IMG/VR virus record: IMGVR_UViG_3300042115_000060
Span: 1-20,036 of that record
Length of the DNA: 20,036 nt
From: a virus
Reading direction: 5' to 3' (one strand)
Shown: positions 2,256-17,649 of the stretch, one piece after another
Layout: every line of letters begins with the position of its first letter
Position numbering within the stretch: position 1 is the stretch's first letter
Notes under the pieces: model-generated
What the model saw: the letters and a program-made list of their open reading frames with translations, nothing else
Database searches by the model: none
Told to the model about the DNA's origin: nothing
Made by a program: the position numbers and the translations under genes

Positions 2256-2687
2256 ATGGCAACCCAGTGCAAGCTGTACCGCGGCCTCGCGCCGCAGTTG
2301 ATCCCGCCTGAGAAGTGGACGCTGCTGACGTTTGAGAAGACGATCCGCAACGACCGGTCCATGGCACGCGACCGCTGCCTGATCATGCCGCCGTTCGACG
2401 GGGACTTCGAGTGGTCGCGGAACCTGCGCTGGGCCGCGATCACCCTCCCCGACGGAGACACCAGGCCCCGGCAGTTCATGTCGCGCTTCGTGCGTGACCC
2501 GCACGGCATCCGCGACGACACCGGCGCCGACGACCGTCTAGCCACCCCAGGCCGGTCGTGGCAGACCGTCACGTGGCCGTTCTACGGCGAGGCGTACCAG
2601 CCCGTCGGCGTGGAGGTGTGGCACGACCACACCGAACCATGGGCCATCGAACACGCCCAATTCACGGCCACCACCTGGGACTACTGA
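2256..2687 (+). CDS. Small probable virion protein
   Basis: A 143-aa protein beginning MATQCKLYRG. The ATG at 2256 is chosen over an in-frame start at 2169 because it avoids an 87-base overlap with the fibre gene and follows AGGCAGGA. It has many aromatic residues (W and F in the FDGDFEW, NLRWAAI and TWPFYGE segments), no predicted membrane segment and a beta-rich look. I do not recognise its family. Its place between the fibre and the endolysin suggests a baseplate or fibre-accessory protein, or a chaperone for the fibre; this rests on position only. Confidence 0.75.
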   Translation: MATQCKLYRGLAPQLIPPEKWTLLTFEKTIRNDRSMARDRCLIMPPFDGDFEWSRNLRWAAITLPDGDTRPRQFMSRFVRDPHGIRDDTGADDRLATPGRSWQTVTWPFYGEAYQPVGVEVWHDHTEPWAIEHAQFTATTWDY

Positions 2688-2701
2688 GAGAAGGATCGGC
2701 C

Positions 2702-3583
2702 ATGGCTTGGTATCCGGGCGCCACGAAGTACGAACTCCAGCCCGAGTCGGACGCGCAAGCGGCGATCCGGCCGACCCAGTTCATCGTTCACAGCATCATC
2801 GCCCCGTGGACGGCGAAGCGGGTCTACGAGTACTGGCGGGATAGCACCAACTTGGAGTCCCATTTCGGCCTCGGTTATGAGGGCGACCTCGGCCAGTTCA
2901 TCGGCACGGAGACCCGAGCGGACGCGAACGCCGGCGCGAACCGGCGGGCGGACGGTACGGGCGCGGTGTCGATCGAGACGGCGTCGAACTTGCAGGGTTC
3001 GGATCCGTGGACGGCGGCGCAGGTCGAGGAGCTGACCAAGCTCGGTGTGTGGCTGCATCAGCGGCACGGGATCCCGCTTCGTGTCTGCCGTACCCACGAC
3101 GATCCGGGGTTCGGCTATCACCGGCTCTTCCCCGAGTGGTCTACGTCGGGCACCTCGTGCCCTGGTGACGCGCGGGTGAAGCAGTTCAAGGAGGTCGTGT
3201 TTCCGGGCATCGTCGCCCGCGCGACTGGTTCCACCCCACCGGAGGAGGACGACGTGGCCCTGACCGCGACGGATGTGAAGACTCTCGCGAAGACGGACGG
3301 CGTGTTCACGTCGCCGGACGGCGCGGACGACACGAAGGGAAACGAGTTCTGGAGCCTGGAGTCGTACCAGCGGTACGGCTACCTCCAGGGCCGCGAGACG
3401 AAGCAGCTCATCAAGGCGCTCGGCGTGAAGGTCGACGCGCAGAACACCATGATCGACCAGCTTGTGAAGACCGTTGCCACCCTCGCCGCGAACGTCGGCG
3501 ACATCGACCCGGCCGCGATCGTCGCCGAACTCAAGGCGTCGATCGAGTCCGTCACCATCCACCTCGACGCCGACGGCGTCTGA
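2702..3583 (+). CDS. Endolysin: N-acetylmuramoyl-L-alanine amidase
   Basis: A 293-aa protein; the ATG at 2702 sits 6 bases after GAGAAGGA. Residues 20-160 match the zinc amidase_2/PGRP fold. H30 (FIVHS), H140 (GYHR) and C153 (TSCPGD) fit the three zinc ligands of T7-lysozyme-like enzymes. Such enzymes cut the bond between N-acetylmuramic acid and L-alanine in peptidoglycan. After an acidic linker (about 180-190) the C-terminal region (about 190-290) has a WSLESYQRYGYLQG segment and a helical, coiled-coil-like end ending in IHLDADGV, probably for wall binding or oligomerisation. No signal peptide is seen, so export should depend on the adjacent holin. Confidence 0.9.
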   Translation: MAWYPGATKYELQPESDAQAAIRPTQFIVHSIIAPWTAKRVYEYWRDSTNLESHFGLGYEGDLGQFIGTETRADANAGANRRADGTGAVSIETASNLQGSDPWTAAQVEELTKLGVWLHQRHGIPLRVCRTHDDPGFGYHRLFPEWSTSGTSCPGDARVKQFKEVVFPGIVARATGSTPPEEDDVALTATDVKTLAKTDGVFTSPDGADDTKGNEFWSLESYQRYGYLQGRETKQLIKALGVKVDAQNTMIDQLVKTVATLAANVGDIDPAAIVAELKASIESVTIHLDADGV

Positions 3584-3932: not shown

Positions 3933-4229
3933 GTGCCGGATGAGCTGACGCTCGGCGAGTTGGCCCGCCGCCTGGACGATCGCACGGGCGACATTCGGGA
4001 TGACATTCGGGGCCTGTCTGAGGAGATGGCCAAGAAGGTCGACCAGCGGCTGTATGACATCCGGCACGATGCGCTCGCCGCTCGGGTGGCGACGTTGGAG
4101 ACGCTCAGGGAGAAGGACGCTGAGAAGCTCATCGCGACGCGCCGTTGGCTGATTGGTGCGGTGATTGTGCCACTGGTCGCAATCCTCCTGCCGATGGTCA
4201 TCCTGCTGGCTCGGGGGTCTGGGTCGTGA
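3933..4229 (+). CDS. Coiled-coil protein with C-terminal membrane anchor
   Basis: A 98-aa protein started at GTG 3933, which has GGAG 6 bases upstream; an upstream TTG at 3927 lies too close to that site. Residues 5-70 are highly charged and helical, with heptad-like spacing ([15 protein letters not shown] and on). Residues 72-93 form one hydrophobic segment ([21 protein letters not shown]). The layout, with a cytoplasmic coiled coil and a tail anchor, is common in lysis-cassette accessory proteins such as second holins or antiholins. Its stop overlaps the next start as GTGA, so it is probably co-translated with the collagen-like protein. Confidence 0.75.
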
Positions 4230-4861
4230 GCCGGGCGCAGGTGCGGGCGGAGGAGCGTCGGGGGCGTCGCGGTGACGTGTGGGCGGTCGTGGGCGCGGTG
4301 GCTTTGGGGGCGGTGCTGGCGTGGATTGTGCTGACGATTCAGGGTGTGACGCACGATCTGCACGAGGAGCGGGAGTACAACCGGCTGTTGGCGCAGCAGG
4401 TGCGGGATCTGGGCGGGAAGCCGATCAAGGGGCCGCCGGGTGAGCCGGGTGCTTCGGTGACGGGTCCGCCCGGCCCGCAGGGGGAGCCGGGGTCGCCGGG
4501 CGTGGACGGGGAGCCGGGCCCGTCGGGGAGTCCGGGTAAGGCGGGGGCGGACGGCGTCGATGGTTCTGACGGTAAGGCCGGGGAGCCCGGAGCCGTCGGC
4601 GCTTCGGGTCCGGCTGGTCCTGCTGGTCCTCCGGGTCCGCAGGGTGAGCCGGGTCCGCCTGGGCCTCAGGGCGAGCCGGGCGTGGACGGGGCGGACGGGG
4701 AGGATGGGCAGACGTGCCCGGACGGCTACAGCTTGCAGGCTCCGGCGTATGACGAGGCTGCGCTGGTGTGCCGCCGGGATGGGGCGCCGGATCCTGAGGA
4801 GCCGGGTGGTGGTCCGCAGGCGGCTGGGGCGTTGGATCCGCAGCGCCGCGTGTACGCGTAG
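4226..4861 (+). CDS. Membrane-anchored collagen-like protein
   Basis: A 211-aa protein that starts at GTG 4226, overlapping the previous stop (GTGA). A basic N-terminus (residues 1-17) precedes one membrane segment (about 18-39) and a short helical stem. Collagen-type Gly-X-Y repeats then run from about 69 to 160: three triplets, a two-residue break, and 27 uninterrupted triplets rich in GPP, GEP and GPQ. A small C-terminal head follows with two cysteines (C164 and C182) and an acidic tail. The order predicts a type II membrane protein with a trimeric rod reaching into the cell wall. Collagen-like repeats are known in phage fibre proteins; here the anchor and lysis-cassette position suggest a role in envelope disruption or surface exposure. 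That role is inference. Confidence 0.8.
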
Positions 4862-8276: not shown

Positions 8277-9881
8277 CTACACCAACCAGACGATCTCAAT
8301 CGTGTCCGTGTCGAGAAGCATGTTCCTCGGTAGGCGGCCCTTCCGGGCGGGATGCAGCCGCACCGTCATCATGTACGAGATCACCGCCCGCTGCCGCGAC
8401 AGATCCCACTTGCCCCACTCCTCCACCATGTCGTCCGCCGCAAGCAACCCAGCCACGGGGTTCACCTCCACCGCCCGCGACAGGACGCCTTCCGCAGCCT
8501 CCAGGCGCTCTCTCGCAAGCTTTGAAGCGATCCGCCACTCCGGCATGCTCATCGCCCCCGAACCAAGCTCCTGCGCCAGCTCATCCAACGTCTGACGGGC
8601 CTGCCGGATCGTGGCCTGAGCACCCCGCACATCCACCGGATCCTGCTTGTGCGCGAATATGTCTCCCGCATCGGGCCGCGCCAGCCGCTTCATCAGATTG
8701 GCCTGCACGAAGTCGTCCAACGGCTCAGCCTTCCGCACCACATGCTGACCCGCACGACAGCCATACGCGACTAGGTACCTGCCGCCAGCGCGATTGCTGG
8801 TCATGCACCGCACGGTCGCCCCGCACGGCCCACACACGTACAAGCCCGACCCGAGATACTTCCGCTCGTTCCCCGGTGTTGTACGCCGCCCCGGATCGTC
8901 GAGCAACGACACCAGACTCCGCCACGTCGGCTCATCCAGCGGACCGGGCCAGCCAGCAGGGCCGGCCTCTTTCCCGCGGTGCACGAGGATGCCCGCGTTC
9001 CTGGGACGGCGAAGCATCGCCCCGACCTCGGGGCCCTCCCAGTCGCTGCCCGTGCTCGTGAGGACCGGCGGGTTCATCCGGTTCCACTCGGCGGCGATGG
9101 CGCGCAGCGACCCGCCTGCGAGGATGGTGTCTGCGGCTTCCCGGATCCGCTGGAATTCGCTGCCTTCGGCCACAGTGGCGGCGTGCCCGCACTGGCGGCA
9201 CACCATCCACGTGTACCGGCTGTGGGGGGCGTGGCAGTGGTTGCAGGCCCAGCCGTCGAGGTTGTCGTCTCGGCCGCACTCCCCGCACTTGATGACCATC
9301 CGGAAGCCGTCTGGGTCGTCCTGCCCGCACGGCAGGCAGATCAGGGACCGCGGGGTGACGCCGTCAGCTTCCCACCCGAAGGGGCGACGCCCGCCGAAGA
9401 ACTTCCCGTCGCGGGCCATCTCGTCCCGCTTGCGTTTCTGCCGCTCCACCATCCGCTCAACCTCGTAGCGGGCCTGCACGCCCAGCTGCCGGGCGATCAT
9501 CCGGCCGGTGGCCGTGGACAGGTCCAGCACTCCGGCCTTGACCGTGCGGGTCTGTACGGCGCGTGGCTCGCACACGTCGATGTACTCCTCCAGTTCGGCC
9601 GGGGAGCGGTGGAGGCGGTCGGTGTGCCAGGCGAGGACGATGTCTGCCCGCCCGGCGCGGAGGTCGGCGAGGAGCTTCTGATATCCGGGGCGCGGCTTAC
9701 CCGAGTAGGCGGAGAGGTCGTTGTCGCTGTAGACGGCGACGACGTCGAGGCCGAGGCTGGCGGCGAGGACTTCGCAGTCTTCGCGTTGGCGGCCGACGCC
9801 GAGGCCGGCGCCTTCGCGGTCGCGGCTGATGCGGCAGTAGATGATCGCGCGGGTTGGGATGCCGGGTGCGTGGGTGGGCAT
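8277..9881 (-). CDS. int: Large serine integrase with extra CxxC-rich insertion
   Basis: A 534-aa site-specific recombinase. Residues 11-155 are the resolvase catalytic domain: nucleophile S19 in YCRISRD, plus YSDNDLSAYSGKPRPGY and the ADIVLAWHTDRLHR core. The recombinase domain resumes around 240 (FQRIREAADTILAGGSLRAI). The zinc-ribbon domain (CGPC near 355, then YGCRAGQH) is followed by a coiled-coil region (about 410-470) that governs synapsis direction. Between FGGRRPFGWEADG (about 162-174) and 240 lies an insertion with four CxxC knuckles at 182, 199, 213 and 228, which most phage integrases lack. It catalyses attP x attB integration. The start codon lies 18 bases from the candidate attP and has no clear Shine-Dalgarno. 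Confidence 0.95.
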   Translation of the reverse strand: MPTHAPGIPTRAIIYCRISRDREGAGLGVGRQREDCEVLAASLGLDVVAVYSDNDLSAYSGKPRPGYQKLLADLRAGRADIVLAWHTDRLHRSPAELEEYIDVCEPRAVQTRTVKAGVLDLSTATGRMIARQLGVQARYEVERMVERQKRKRDEMARDGKFFGGRRPFGWEADGVTPRSLICLPCGQDDPDGFRMVIKCGECGRDDNLDGWACNHCHAPHSRYTWMVCRQCGHAATVAEGSEFQRIREAADTILAGGSLRAIAAEWNRMNPPVLTSTGSDWEGPEVGAMLRRPRNAGILVHRGKEAGPAGWPGPLDEPTWRSLVSLLDDPGRRTTPGNERKYLGSGLYVCGPCGATVRCMTSNRAGGRYLVAYGCRAGQHVVRKAEPLDDFVQANLMKRLARPDAGDIFAHKQDPVDVRGAQATIRQARQTLDELAQELGSGAMSMPEWRIASKLARERLEAAEGVLSRAVEVNPVAGLLAADDMVEEWGKWDLSRQRAVISYMMTVRLHPARKGRLPRNMLLDTDTIEIVWLV

Positions 9882-9898: not shown

Positions 9899-9954
9899 TA
9901 ATACTGCGTTTGTCTCAGGTTCGCTAGGTCGAAGCCCACTGGAAGGCAGTATTA
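9899..9954. other. Candidate attP site
   Basis: Perfect 9-bp inverted repeats TAATACTGC (9899-9907) and GCAGTATTA (9946-9954) flank a 38-bp spacer. The whole is 56 bp, the size expected for a serine-integrase attP, with its centre at about 9926/9927 (GCTAGGTC). It lies immediately upstream of int, where attP is placed in several Streptomyces phages. The crossover dinucleotide cannot be fixed without attB or attL/attR. Confidence 0.6.
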
Positions 9955-9981
9955 AAGCCGCAGGCTGTGGGCCTGCGGCTT
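9955..9981 (-). terminator. Terminator after the 83-aa gene
   Basis: A perfect 11-bp stem (AAGCCGCAGGC and GCCTGCGGCTT) with a TGTGG loop. On the minus strand it is followed by TTTAAT, so it should end the leftward repressor transcript. It touches the edge of the attP repeat. Confidence 0.75.
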
Positions 9982-10005
9982 CAAAGTGTGGGGGGTTGGG
10001 TGGAG

Positions 10006-10257
10006 CTAGCGGGCTTCGGGCCAGTTCTGCGCCCACCAGCCCTCGGTCACGATCCGCCGGAACAGTTCGAGCAGCTCGTCCCTGGCCTGCTCACTGACGT
10101 GCTCCTTGGAAGCGAGCCAGGTGAAGGAACCTTCCTGCTCCACTCCCGCGATGGCCCGCCCGCCAGGGAGGCTGCCGACCAGTTCCATCCGGATCTCCGG
10201 CTGCGGTCGCGCCTGCTGTGACTCGCTGTCACTCTGCCGGGTTTCCTCGTCCGCCAT
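10006..10257 (-). CDS. 83-aa unknown protein of the lysogeny block
   Basis: The ATG at 10257 (MADEETRQSDS) is chosen because GGAGG lies upstream at suitable spacing; a longer frame to 10455 would overlap the repressor. The N-terminal 20 residues are polar and probably disordered. The rest is a compact alpha/beta stretch (IRMELVGSLPGGRAIAGVEQ), then helix EQARDELLELFRRIVTE and an aromatic end GWWAQNWPEAR. No family is recognised. It lies between attP and the repressor, on the repressor strand, and would be made in lysogens. A role in immunity or as an integration helper is possible but unproven. Confidence 0.7.
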   Translation of the reverse strand: MADEETRQSDSESQQARPQPEIRMELVGSLPGGRAIAGVEQEGSFTWLASKEHVSEQARDELLELFRRIVTEGWWAQNWPEAR

Positions 10258-15272: not shown

Positions 15273-15532
15273 CGACCGTCACGTCCGCCGGCCCCACCGG
15301 GCGCCTCGCCTACCTCCTCGACGCCATCCGCGTACAAGGCGGGCGCTGGACCACCAGCAAGGCATTCAACGCCTACCGCAGCCTGCCGCAACTCGCCGCA
15401 CTGGGGCCGGGCCAGATCCGCATCGTCGCCCGCGGTGACCTCCGCGACCTCGCCGCGTGGGGCTGGCTCACCGCCCACGACGACACCGGCCGCCGCGAGT
15501 ACACCCTCAACACCCGAAAGGACCACCAGTGA
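15269..15532 (+). CDS. 87-aa winged-helix-like protein
   Basis: ATGA coupling gives MTTVTSAGPTGRLAYLLDAI. The order helix (LAYLLDAIRVQGG), helix (WTTSKAFNAYRSL), helix (GQIRIVARGDLRDLAAWG) and a final beta hairpin (WLTAHDDTGRREYTLN) resembles a small winged helix. Such proteins bind DNA or mediate replication or recombination contacts. The fold is judged by eye only. It is coupled to the Rad52-like gene, so a helper role in recombination or its regulation is plausible. Confidence 0.7.
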   Translation: MTTVTSAGPTGRLAYLLDAIRVQGGRWTTSKAFNAYRSLPQLAALGPGQIRIVARGDLRDLAAWGWLTAHDDTGRREYTLNTRKDHQ

Positions 15533-16311
15533 CCCGCCTGACCGAACAGCAGGTTGGCTTCCTGCTGCAGCCCATCGCCAGCAACCGCGTCCGCAACCTG
15601 CGGGGCATGTCCCACCTCGAAGCGTGGGACGTCCGCCGCCAACTGATCCGCATCTTCGGCTTCGAGGGGTTCACTGTCGAAACCCTCTCCCTGGAACTCG
15701 TCGCCGAGCGGGAGACGAAGCAAGGCGACCGGTCCCGATGGACGATCGTCTACCGGGCCCAGGTCAGGCTCACGATCAAGACCGTCGACGGCACACCGAT
15801 CGCTGTCTTCGAGGACGCTGCAGCCGGTGACGCGGTCAACCAGCCGTCGATCGGAGACGCGCACGACCTCGCCATGAAGACCGCCCTGTCGCAGGCACTC
15901 AAGCGGTGCGCGGTCAACCTCGGCGACCAGTTCGGGCTGTCGCTCTACAACGACGGCTCACAAAACGCGGTAGTCATGCGGTCACTGGCGTACATGGGCG
16001 AGCCCGTGAAGGAGTCGGAGGACGCCCCGGTGCAGCCGGAGCCGACCCCGCAGACGCCGACGGTCGTACCCAATCCGACCGACCAGGACCGCGACCCCAA
16101 CCCCGCCGCCGAGCCGACGACGCCGACCGAGCAGGGCAACACGGAGTGGCAGGCCGCCCTCGACGAGATGCGGCAGATGGCCGCCGCCATCAACTTCGCC
16201 GACGGTCTCCCCGGTCAGTTCGTCGCCACCTTCGGCCACCCCATCGAGCAGGGCACCGCCGACGAGTTCCGCGAGGCCACCGCGCTCATGCGCGGCACCG
16301 CCGCCGCCTAA
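15529..16311 (+). CDS. Rad52-like single-strand annealing protein
   Basis: A 260-aa protein starting at GTG 15529 (GTGA overlap). Residues 1-140 match the Rad52/Rad22 annealing core: RGMSHLEAWDVRRQLIRIFG, then a beta sheet (TVETLSLELVAERE, RSRWTIVYRAQVRLTIKTVD), then the hallmark helix SIGDAHDLAMKTALSQALKR with CAVNLGDQFG at about 107-137. A Pro/Thr-rich linker (about 164-203) leads to a helical C-terminus that may bind a partner. Rad52-type proteins form rings that anneal complementary single strands during phage recombination and replication. The coupled winged-helix protein upstream and the nearby DEDDh exonuclease and RuvC-like protein complete a recombination module. Confidence 0.85.
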   Translation: MTRLTEQQVGFLLQPIASNRVRNLRGMSHLEAWDVRRQLIRIFGFEGFTVETLSLELVAERETKQGDRSRWTIVYRAQVRLTIKTVDGTPIAVFEDAAAGDAVNQPSIGDAHDLAMKTALSQALKRCAVNLGDQFGLSLYNDGSQNAVVMRSLAYMGEPVKESEDAPVQPEPTPQTPTVVPNPTDQDRDPNPAAEPTTPTEQGNTEWQAALDEMRQMAAAINFADGLPGQFVATFGHPIEQGTADEFREATALMRGTAAA

Positions 16312-16375: not shown

Positions 16376-16903
16376 ATGAACGTGAAGGAAGCAGCGGCCA
16401 GGGCCGCTGTCCTCGACACCCTCCACAAGGCCATCGGCGACGAGCTGAAGGCCGCCAAGCGCGACCTGGAGGACGGGCTGCGGGCCGCGAAGGCAGAGAC
16501 CGGAACCCAGAAGGTCGCCATCAGCCTCGACGAGCAGCAGGACATCGGCACCGCCAGCCTCGTCCAGCCGGCCGCCGCGGCCGTCGTCGCCGACGTCGAG
16601 AAGTTCAAGGCGTGGGTGATGGACCACTACGCGAGCGAGATCGAGCGGAAGTTCGTCACCGAGGTCCGTGCCTCGTTCACCGCCCGTCTGCTGAAGGAGA
16701 TGACCGCCGCCGGGGTGGCGCAGTGGGCCGACCCGGAGACGGGCGAGATCCACGATGTGCCGGGTGTGGAGATGCAGGGCCGGGCGGCGTACACGCGGCT
16801 GACGGTGCCGACTGCGGGCAAGCAGGCGATCGGGCAGGCGTGGCAGTCGGGCGCGCTCTCGCATCTGGTGCTTCCGCAGCTCACCGCCGGAGGTGCCGAG
16901 TGA
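16376..16903 (+). CDS. 175-aa unknown protein of the recombination module
   Basis: The ATG follows AGGAG by about 7 bases, and unlike its neighbours the gene is not coupled to the one before. Residues 1-50 are a charged helix (EAAARAAVLDTLHKAIGDEL, then AAKRDLEDGLRAAKAE); then QQDIGTASLVQP and a second helical stretch (VEKFKAWVMDHYASEIERKF). WADPETGEIHDVPGVEM and QGRAAYTRLTVP form a beta part. I do not recognise the family; a nuclease-inhibitor or DNA-end protection protein would fit the position, but this is only inference. Confidence 0.75.
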   Translation: MNVKEAAARAAVLDTLHKAIGDELKAAKRDLEDGLRAAKAETGTQKVAISLDEQQDIGTASLVQPAAAAVVADVEKFKAWVMDHYASEIERKFVTEVRASFTARLLKEMTAAGVAQWADPETGEIHDVPGVEMQGRAAYTRLTVPTAGKQAIGQAWQSGALSHLVLPQLTAGGAE

Positions 16904-17649
16904 CCGCCCTCGTGCAGCCCGACCTCGCCGGGCACGTCGAACTCCCCTGGCACCGCGGGCCACTCGCCTCGTACGACTGCGAGACGAGCGGCCTCAACAT
17001 CGGCGAGGACCGCATCGTCACAGCCGCCCTGATCCGACCCAACGGGGAGACCCGCCGCTGGTTCTCCGACGCTGACGGCGTCGAGATCCCCGAGGCCGCC
17101 AGCAACATCCACGGCTACACCACCGATGTCGTACGGGCCAAGGGGCACCCCGCAAAGCAGGTCGTCGAGGAGATCACCGACGCGCTCGCCGGAGAACTCT
17201 CAGCCGGCCGCGCGGCGCTGGTTGTGATGAACGCCCCGTTCGACCTGAGCCTGTTGGACGCGGAGTGCGCCCGGCATGGCGTGCCGACGATCGCTGAGCG
17301 GATCGGCGCCGTCGCACCGATCGTGGACCCCCTCGTTCTCGACCGGGCGGCGGACAAGTACCGGTCTGGTCGCCGGAATCTGGAGACGCTCGCCAAGCAC
17401 TACGGCGTGACGCTCACGGACGCGCACCAGGCGGACGCCGATGCCCAGGCCGCGCTCGCTGTGGCGCGGCGGATCGCGGAGGAGCACCCGAAGGTGCAGG
17501 TACCTGCGCGGGTGCTGCACGGCTGGCAGGTGCAGTGGCACGCGCGGTGGGCTGCGGACCGCGAGGCGTTCCTGGCACGGAAGGGCAAGACGGAGTCGGT
17601 CGACGGCACGTGGCCGATCCGCCCCGTCCCGGCGGGAGGTGCGGCATGA
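16900..17649 (+). CDS. DnaQ-like DEDDh 3'-5' exonuclease
   Basis: A 249-aa protein from GTG 16900 (GTGA overlap). Motif I is D26/E28 in SYDCETSGL, motif II NAPFD with D115, and motif III H176xxxxD181 in AHQADADAQ. These are the four acidic residues and histidine of DEDDh nucleases that bind two metal ions and remove nucleotides from 3' ends. The C-terminal 50 residues (VQVPARVLHGWQVQWHARWA and on) resemble a short helical extension common in phage versions. It probably provides single-strand trimming for the Rad52-like protein, or proofreading for a polymerase encoded beyond the window. Confidence 0.88.
   Translation: MTALVQPDLAGHVELPWHRGPLASYDCETSGLNIGEDRIVTAALIRPNGETRRWFSDADGVEIPEAASNIHGYTTDVVRAKGHPAKQVVEEITDALAGELSAGRAALVVMNAPFDLSLLDAECARHGVPTIAERIGAVAPIVDPLVLDRAADKYRSGRRNLETLAKHYGVTLTDAHQADADAQAALAVARRIAEEHPKVQVPARVLHGWQVQWHARWAADREAFLARKGKTESVDGTWPIRPVPAGGAA

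Follow-up and report, generated by a model that had tools for sequence, protein, structure and literature searches.

A predicted double zinc-ribbon insert within the recombinase domain of a large serine integrase from a Streptomyces phage

The large serine integrase encoded at positions 8277-9881 of a 20,036-base virus record (the whole of this stretch is the window analyzed here; the gene and its parts lie on the minus strand, as do the attachment site and the small gene beside it) carries two extra predicted zinc ribbons within its recombinase domain, and this double-ribbon insert is a new variant within a known enzyme family. The protein, 534 amino acids in length, is the integrase of a temperate Streptomyces phage. 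Taken as a whole, the observations are best explained by the acquisition of a zinc ribbon that left target choice unchanged and that would provide a protein-contact surface modulating synapsis or directionality, an explanation that we advance tentatively and rate a little short of an even chance. The presence of an extra double zinc ribbon, proposed in an earlier note on this DNA, is supported by our analysis. Most of the clade's serine integrases lack it, and no description of such an integrase insert was found in the papers searched; a survey of large serine recombinases (LSRs; PMC10083194) mentions DUF4368, and no ribbon in the recombinase domain was found in its main text.

The canonical parts of the enzyme are readily assigned. 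The catalytic (resolvase) domain spans residues 12-160 (9402-9848; Pfam PF00239, 8.1e-28, 97.8 bits against a cut-off of 23.3), and its catalytic serine is assigned as S19 in the YCRIS motif (residues 15-19), which is at least 90% conserved in a 50-row alignment. The recombinase domain (PF07508, 26.9 bits against a cut-off of 21.1) is split by the insert, such that the hairpin GGRRPFGWEADGVTP (residues 163-177; 9351-9395), recognized from alignments and AF2 secondary structure, starts the domain directly before the insert and the Pfam match covers the remainder at residues 246-305 (8967-9146; 6e-06). The protein also matches the integrase family PHROG 95 (1.8e-81). Conservation counts and a positive net charge delimit the canonical DNA-binding zinc ribbon at residues 341-386 (8724-8861), with C350, C353 and C375 conserved in 73-74 of the 74 rows and His or Cys at position 380 in 63 of 74; PF13408 gave no Pfam match to the full-length integrase. 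The CGPC motif of this domain, which the earlier note had placed near residue 355, is indeed present but begins at residue 350. Position 380 is His in 40 and Cys in 23 of the 74 rows, and the fourth ligand here is probably His380, giving a possible CCCH site. The coiled-coil motif, which in large serine recombinases is embedded in the zinc domain, is represented by the long helices 418-441 and 446-473 of the AF2 prediction. With catalytic, recombinase and C-terminal zinc ribbon parts found and the coiled coil predicted, together with attP and attB (see below), the protein is a member of the large serine recombinases.

The best fold matches of the integrase are likewise LSR structures. Its catalytic, recombinase, zinc and coiled-coil parts follow one another as in the LI/A118, phiC31 and Bxb1 enzymes (PDB identifiers 4kis, 9rah and 9iu2), and it shares with these systems attP outer arms that lie 16-27 bp from the central dinucleotide. 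It differs from LSRs in its two extra zinc ribbons in the recombinase domain, where aligned insert-free relatives run from the hairpin straight to the helix. The integrases of the Streptomyces phages R4, phiCAM, phiScoe3 and Pablito are similar to it over most of the protein (~30-39% identity), but queries with the insert region, in the form of consensus-like strings, matched none of 50,697 phage records and no plasmid record.

The insert comprises approximately residues 178-240 (9162-9350), a stretch without counterpart in insert-free relatives. We confirm the four CxxC motifs reported earlier at residues 182, 199, 213 and 228, with C182 to C231 corresponding exactly to 9338-9189. The first ribbon extends from CLPC (182) to CGEC (199-202) at 9276-9338 and the second from CNHC (213) to CRQC (228-231) at 9189-9245. 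When the protein was shuffled 20,000 times, four non-overlapping CxxC motifs within 50 amino acids never arose, and the insert is an uninterrupted coding sequence that is retained in 25 distinct double-insert integrases. All eight cysteines are invariant in 25/25 of these proteins, the remaining insert positions averaging 49% majority identity, and the boundary residues PR.L.C and SE are retained across distant versions of the insert. The insert follows the hairpin (GGRRPFG..DG-VTP) and precedes SEFQRIREAADTILAG, the first helix of the recombinase domain, and therefore sits within that domain and not, as the earlier note had it, between the catalytic and recombinase domains. Consistent with this placement, the Pfam Recombinase match starts at residue 246 with profile position 7, and in alignments of the insert-free relatives VTP reaches the same helix after ~5 residues.

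Judging from its sequence, the insert consists of a single zinc-ribbon unit repeated in tandem. Profile comparison of ribbon 1 with ribbon 2 gave a probability of 95, and that of the single-ribbon versions with each half 98; because zinc knuckles look alike and these pairwise probabilities carry no database calibration, the claim of a tandem repeat also rests on shared flanking residues. In the single-ribbon version the beginning resembles ribbon 1 (PRSL.CP.CG) and the end resembles ribbon 2 (A.....GSEA), a pattern that interconversion between one and two units would be expected to give. Derivation of the ribbons from the C-terminal zinc domain of the integrase itself was rejected, as comparison of that domain with the insert ribbons gave profile values of only 5, 3 and 30 and aligned over a single knuckle. 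AF2, run with the family alignment, modeled the insert with a pLDDT of 83-90 in the full-length protein and of 81.5 when modeled by itself; its two halves have a short-long-short arrangement of strands in common. The Cys pattern, its invariance and the predicted beta layout fit a zinc-ribbon fold, and each half may be expected to bind one zinc ion via its own two CxxC knuckles. Foldseek searches initiated using the insert model found no match at E <= 0.001, and VIA-align returned a weak best Z of 3.8, its matches being mostly zinc proteins (MetRS, RPB2, Parkin). The insert resembles DZR (Pfam PF12773) in having four CxxC knuckles of similar spacing, with a weak match of 22.9 bits (E 9.5e-05). 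However, its scores of 22.9 and 15.4 bits fall under the curated cut-off of 27.3, and the insert unit differs from DZR in lying within an enzyme domain and in occurring also as a single ribbon.

The earlier note had regarded its proposal as open to challenge if the insertion proved common in the family; we find it to be rare and patchy across the clade. Among the relatives collected, which include 14 close ones as well as loci drawn from viral contigs and from genomes of Streptomyces, there are 25 distinct proteins with eight cysteines and 11 with a single ribbon, and the named hosts in the genome collection are Streptomyces. The insert was matched in 9/393 sampled Streptomyces genomes (E <= 1e-8), and a sample of 396 Actinomycetota yielded only two matches, both to genomes already known from the Streptomyces sample. 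A 200-genome family search at a looser cut-off recovered more single-ribbon cases, so the single-ribbon rate is a lower bound. An integrase of this clade is present in 20 of 296 Streptomyces genomes (E <= 1e-80), nine of which are the insert-bearing genomes. In a tree built without the insert columns, the insert switches between presence and absence, by gain or by loss, about six times, and five or more of these switches fall on well-supported branches. A single vertical origin of the main double-insert clades, A and B, is disfavored (joint p-AU 0.0275, for a group picked after seeing the tree). Clades A and B have neighboring genes in common, and their integrase backbones are at least as far from each other as from insert-free ones; the insert follows the phage background and not the integrase backbone. 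One single-ribbon integrase, that of Streptomyces sp. TP-A0356 (L053, 5228-5979), is split over two frames and is either frameshifted and probably dead or the product of a sequencing error.

The attachment sites bear on the suggestion that the ribbons change DNA contacts. The predicted attP (9900-9953) lies directly upstream of the integrase gene and, by comparison among relatives, consists of the inverted arms AATACTGC and GCAGTATT around TTCGACC/TAGCGAA (the slash marks the center, GACC/TAGC), with CT as the probable central dinucleotide; equivalent provirus junctions represent attL. The provirus junction with yifB, a Mg-chelatase-like ATPase gene (TIGR00368), carries the same core as attP, the C-terminal part of yifB recurs at the far end of the prophage, and intact yifB in relatives' genomes gives the attB GGCTTCGACCTGGC. 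These sequences indicate that integration would take place at attB via an attP that has inverted arms and a central dinucleotide common to both sites. A literature search for a magnesium-chelatase-like gene as a known attB of Streptomyces serine integrases found no paper. The gene is interrupted after the same GFDL codons by integrases with two ribbons (L049; L050, from S. caniscabiei; L054), one ribbon (L056, L131, L132, L133, L135) or none (L108, L113). The outer attP arms pair 16-27 bp from the center in both groups compared (16 insert-bearing and 18 insert-free integrases), a comparison in which several rows, L008, L011 and L031 among them, have a misplaced center. Of 28 conserved columns, the core-aligned attPs of three insert-free integrases agree at 22, 25 and 21, where shuffling gives ~7 on average. 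Having the same arms, core, spacing and yifB codon, ribbon-bearing and ribbon-free enzymes therefore have DNA recognition in common, and the insert is disfavored as a determinant of DNA specificity; the earlier suggestion of changed DNA contacts is not supported in the sense of target choice. Four single-ribbon loci (L055, L057, L058, L053) have upstream flanks in another host neighborhood, near a LacI-type regulator gene and not yifB. A terminator-like hairpin, GCCGCAGGC...GCCTGCGGCTTT, lies at ~9955-9985 between the small gene described below and attP, abutting the left arm of attP, and is kept in many relatives.

Unchanged target choice would also suit ribbons that are a tolerated structural decoration, folded around zinc with little effect on recombination, in a loop that simply accepts insertions. 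The repeated switching of the insert on the tree speaks for this, as does its dN/dS of 0.47, the highest of the protein (catalytic domain 0.15, C-terminal domain 0.25), and other relatives have an unrelated longer hairpin (TGET...VPEEA) at the same location. Such a decoration would hardly be expected to keep eight cysteines invariant while neighboring residues vary, nor its boundary residues across distant versions, and its presence follows phage lineage; we consider this alternative somewhat unlikely.

The ribbons could instead add contacts to the DNA backbone or the flanking minor groove, which would strengthen binding to the attachment sites and leave sequence preference as it is. Here the charge of the insert is against it: the insert is acidic in nearly all members, with a mean net charge of -2.8 in double versions (range -8 to +1) and -3.4 in single ones, against +6.5 for the canonical DNA-binding zinc ribbon. 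The length, arms and spacing of attP are equal with and without the insert, and the attB gene and codon are identical for zero, one and two ribbons. Zinc ribbons do often bind nucleic acid, the canonical zinc domain of LSRs being an example in the LI structure (PMC3783163), and the insert adjoins the strand coming after the minor-groove linker. Non-sequence-specific contacts of this kind may exist, though the reading as a whole appears distinctly unlikely.

The acidic charge and the high dN/dS suit a variable surface for contacts with proteins better than one for contacts with DNA, and an effect on synapsis or partner binding, also raised by the earlier note, is the best remaining reading of the insert. 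In published work the coiled coil regulates synapsis, an intra-dimer contact between the coiled coil and the recombinase domain has been suggested in attL/attR complexes, and the directionality factor gp3 binds the zinc domain near the base of the coiled coil (PMC5814800). Given such published coiled-coil/recombinase-domain contacts in regulation, a surface on the recombinase domain would thus be well placed to act there. Sequence and profile comparison show that the lineage has gained a zinc ribbon in the loop linking VTP, the hairpin's second strand, to the first helix of the recombinase domain and, in the present enzyme, a tandem copy of this ribbon. By comparison of the att sites, the module has no role in target choice, and the recombinase domain and the canonical zinc domain recognize these sites as they do in relatives without it. 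Its most likely form is that of a projecting protein-contact surface, acidic, rapidly evolving and stabilized by zinc, which may modulate how integrase subunits, coiled coils or a phage directionality or accessory factor meet during synapsis. A more elaborate form of this proposal, which we regard as speculative and unlikely as it stands, is that the ribbons are a plug-in control module, i.e., a lineage-specific docking surface of zero, one or two units through which a phage factor gates synapsis or direction with att-site recognition untouched.

A candidate accessory factor is the 83-residue protein encoded next to attP (10006-10257), singled out by its position and without a Pfam or PHROG match. 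Its gene lies on the side of attP opposite the integrase and, in proviruses, at the far end of the prophage beside attR, as might suit a directionality factor for which the ribbons would be the docking site. Nearly every integrase of the clade is accompanied by a divergent version of it, and more distant matches adjoin other serine recombinases (L094; L116). Identity of the small protein between clades A and B (0.59) is about that within A (0.58), as against 0.25 when A is compared with the nearest insert-free integrases, and the catalytic domain, which lies physically between the small gene and the insert, shows the opposite order (0.69 for A-B and 0.84 for A-insert-free) and follows the backbone. 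However, two control genes further upstream, HTH143 and HTH116, covary with the insert just as the small protein does, so the covariation marks phage lineage and not the small gene in particular, and a specific coupling is downgraded to a candidate. The two-ribbon L054, with a different version of the small protein, is an exception to the covariation, no clear match to the family was found in the single-ribbon proviruses or in G019, and the small protein, like the insert, seems to be acidic. Docking of this particular protein is improbable. That the insert is a redox or metal sensor coupling recombination to the state of the host is very improbable, in that its eight cysteines, although forming two predicted zinc sites, follow the pattern of ordinary structural ribbons, and enzymes with one ribbon or none share its integration site.

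Serine integrases are standard tools of genome engineering and the control of their directionality is only partly understood. The integrases described here form a natural series with zero, one or two ribbons, which share a host gene and near-identical att sites, and the role of an add-on to the recombinase domain is therefore testable apart from DNA recognition. Elsewhere in the window, a Rad52/22-family protein (15457-16311, plus strand; PF04098, 2.9e-20) is followed by an ORF with an exonuclease domain (16612-17649), probably forming a phage recombination module, and a collagen-like protein with Gly-X-Y repeats (4145-4861, plus strand) is encoded near an amidase gene (2558-3583).
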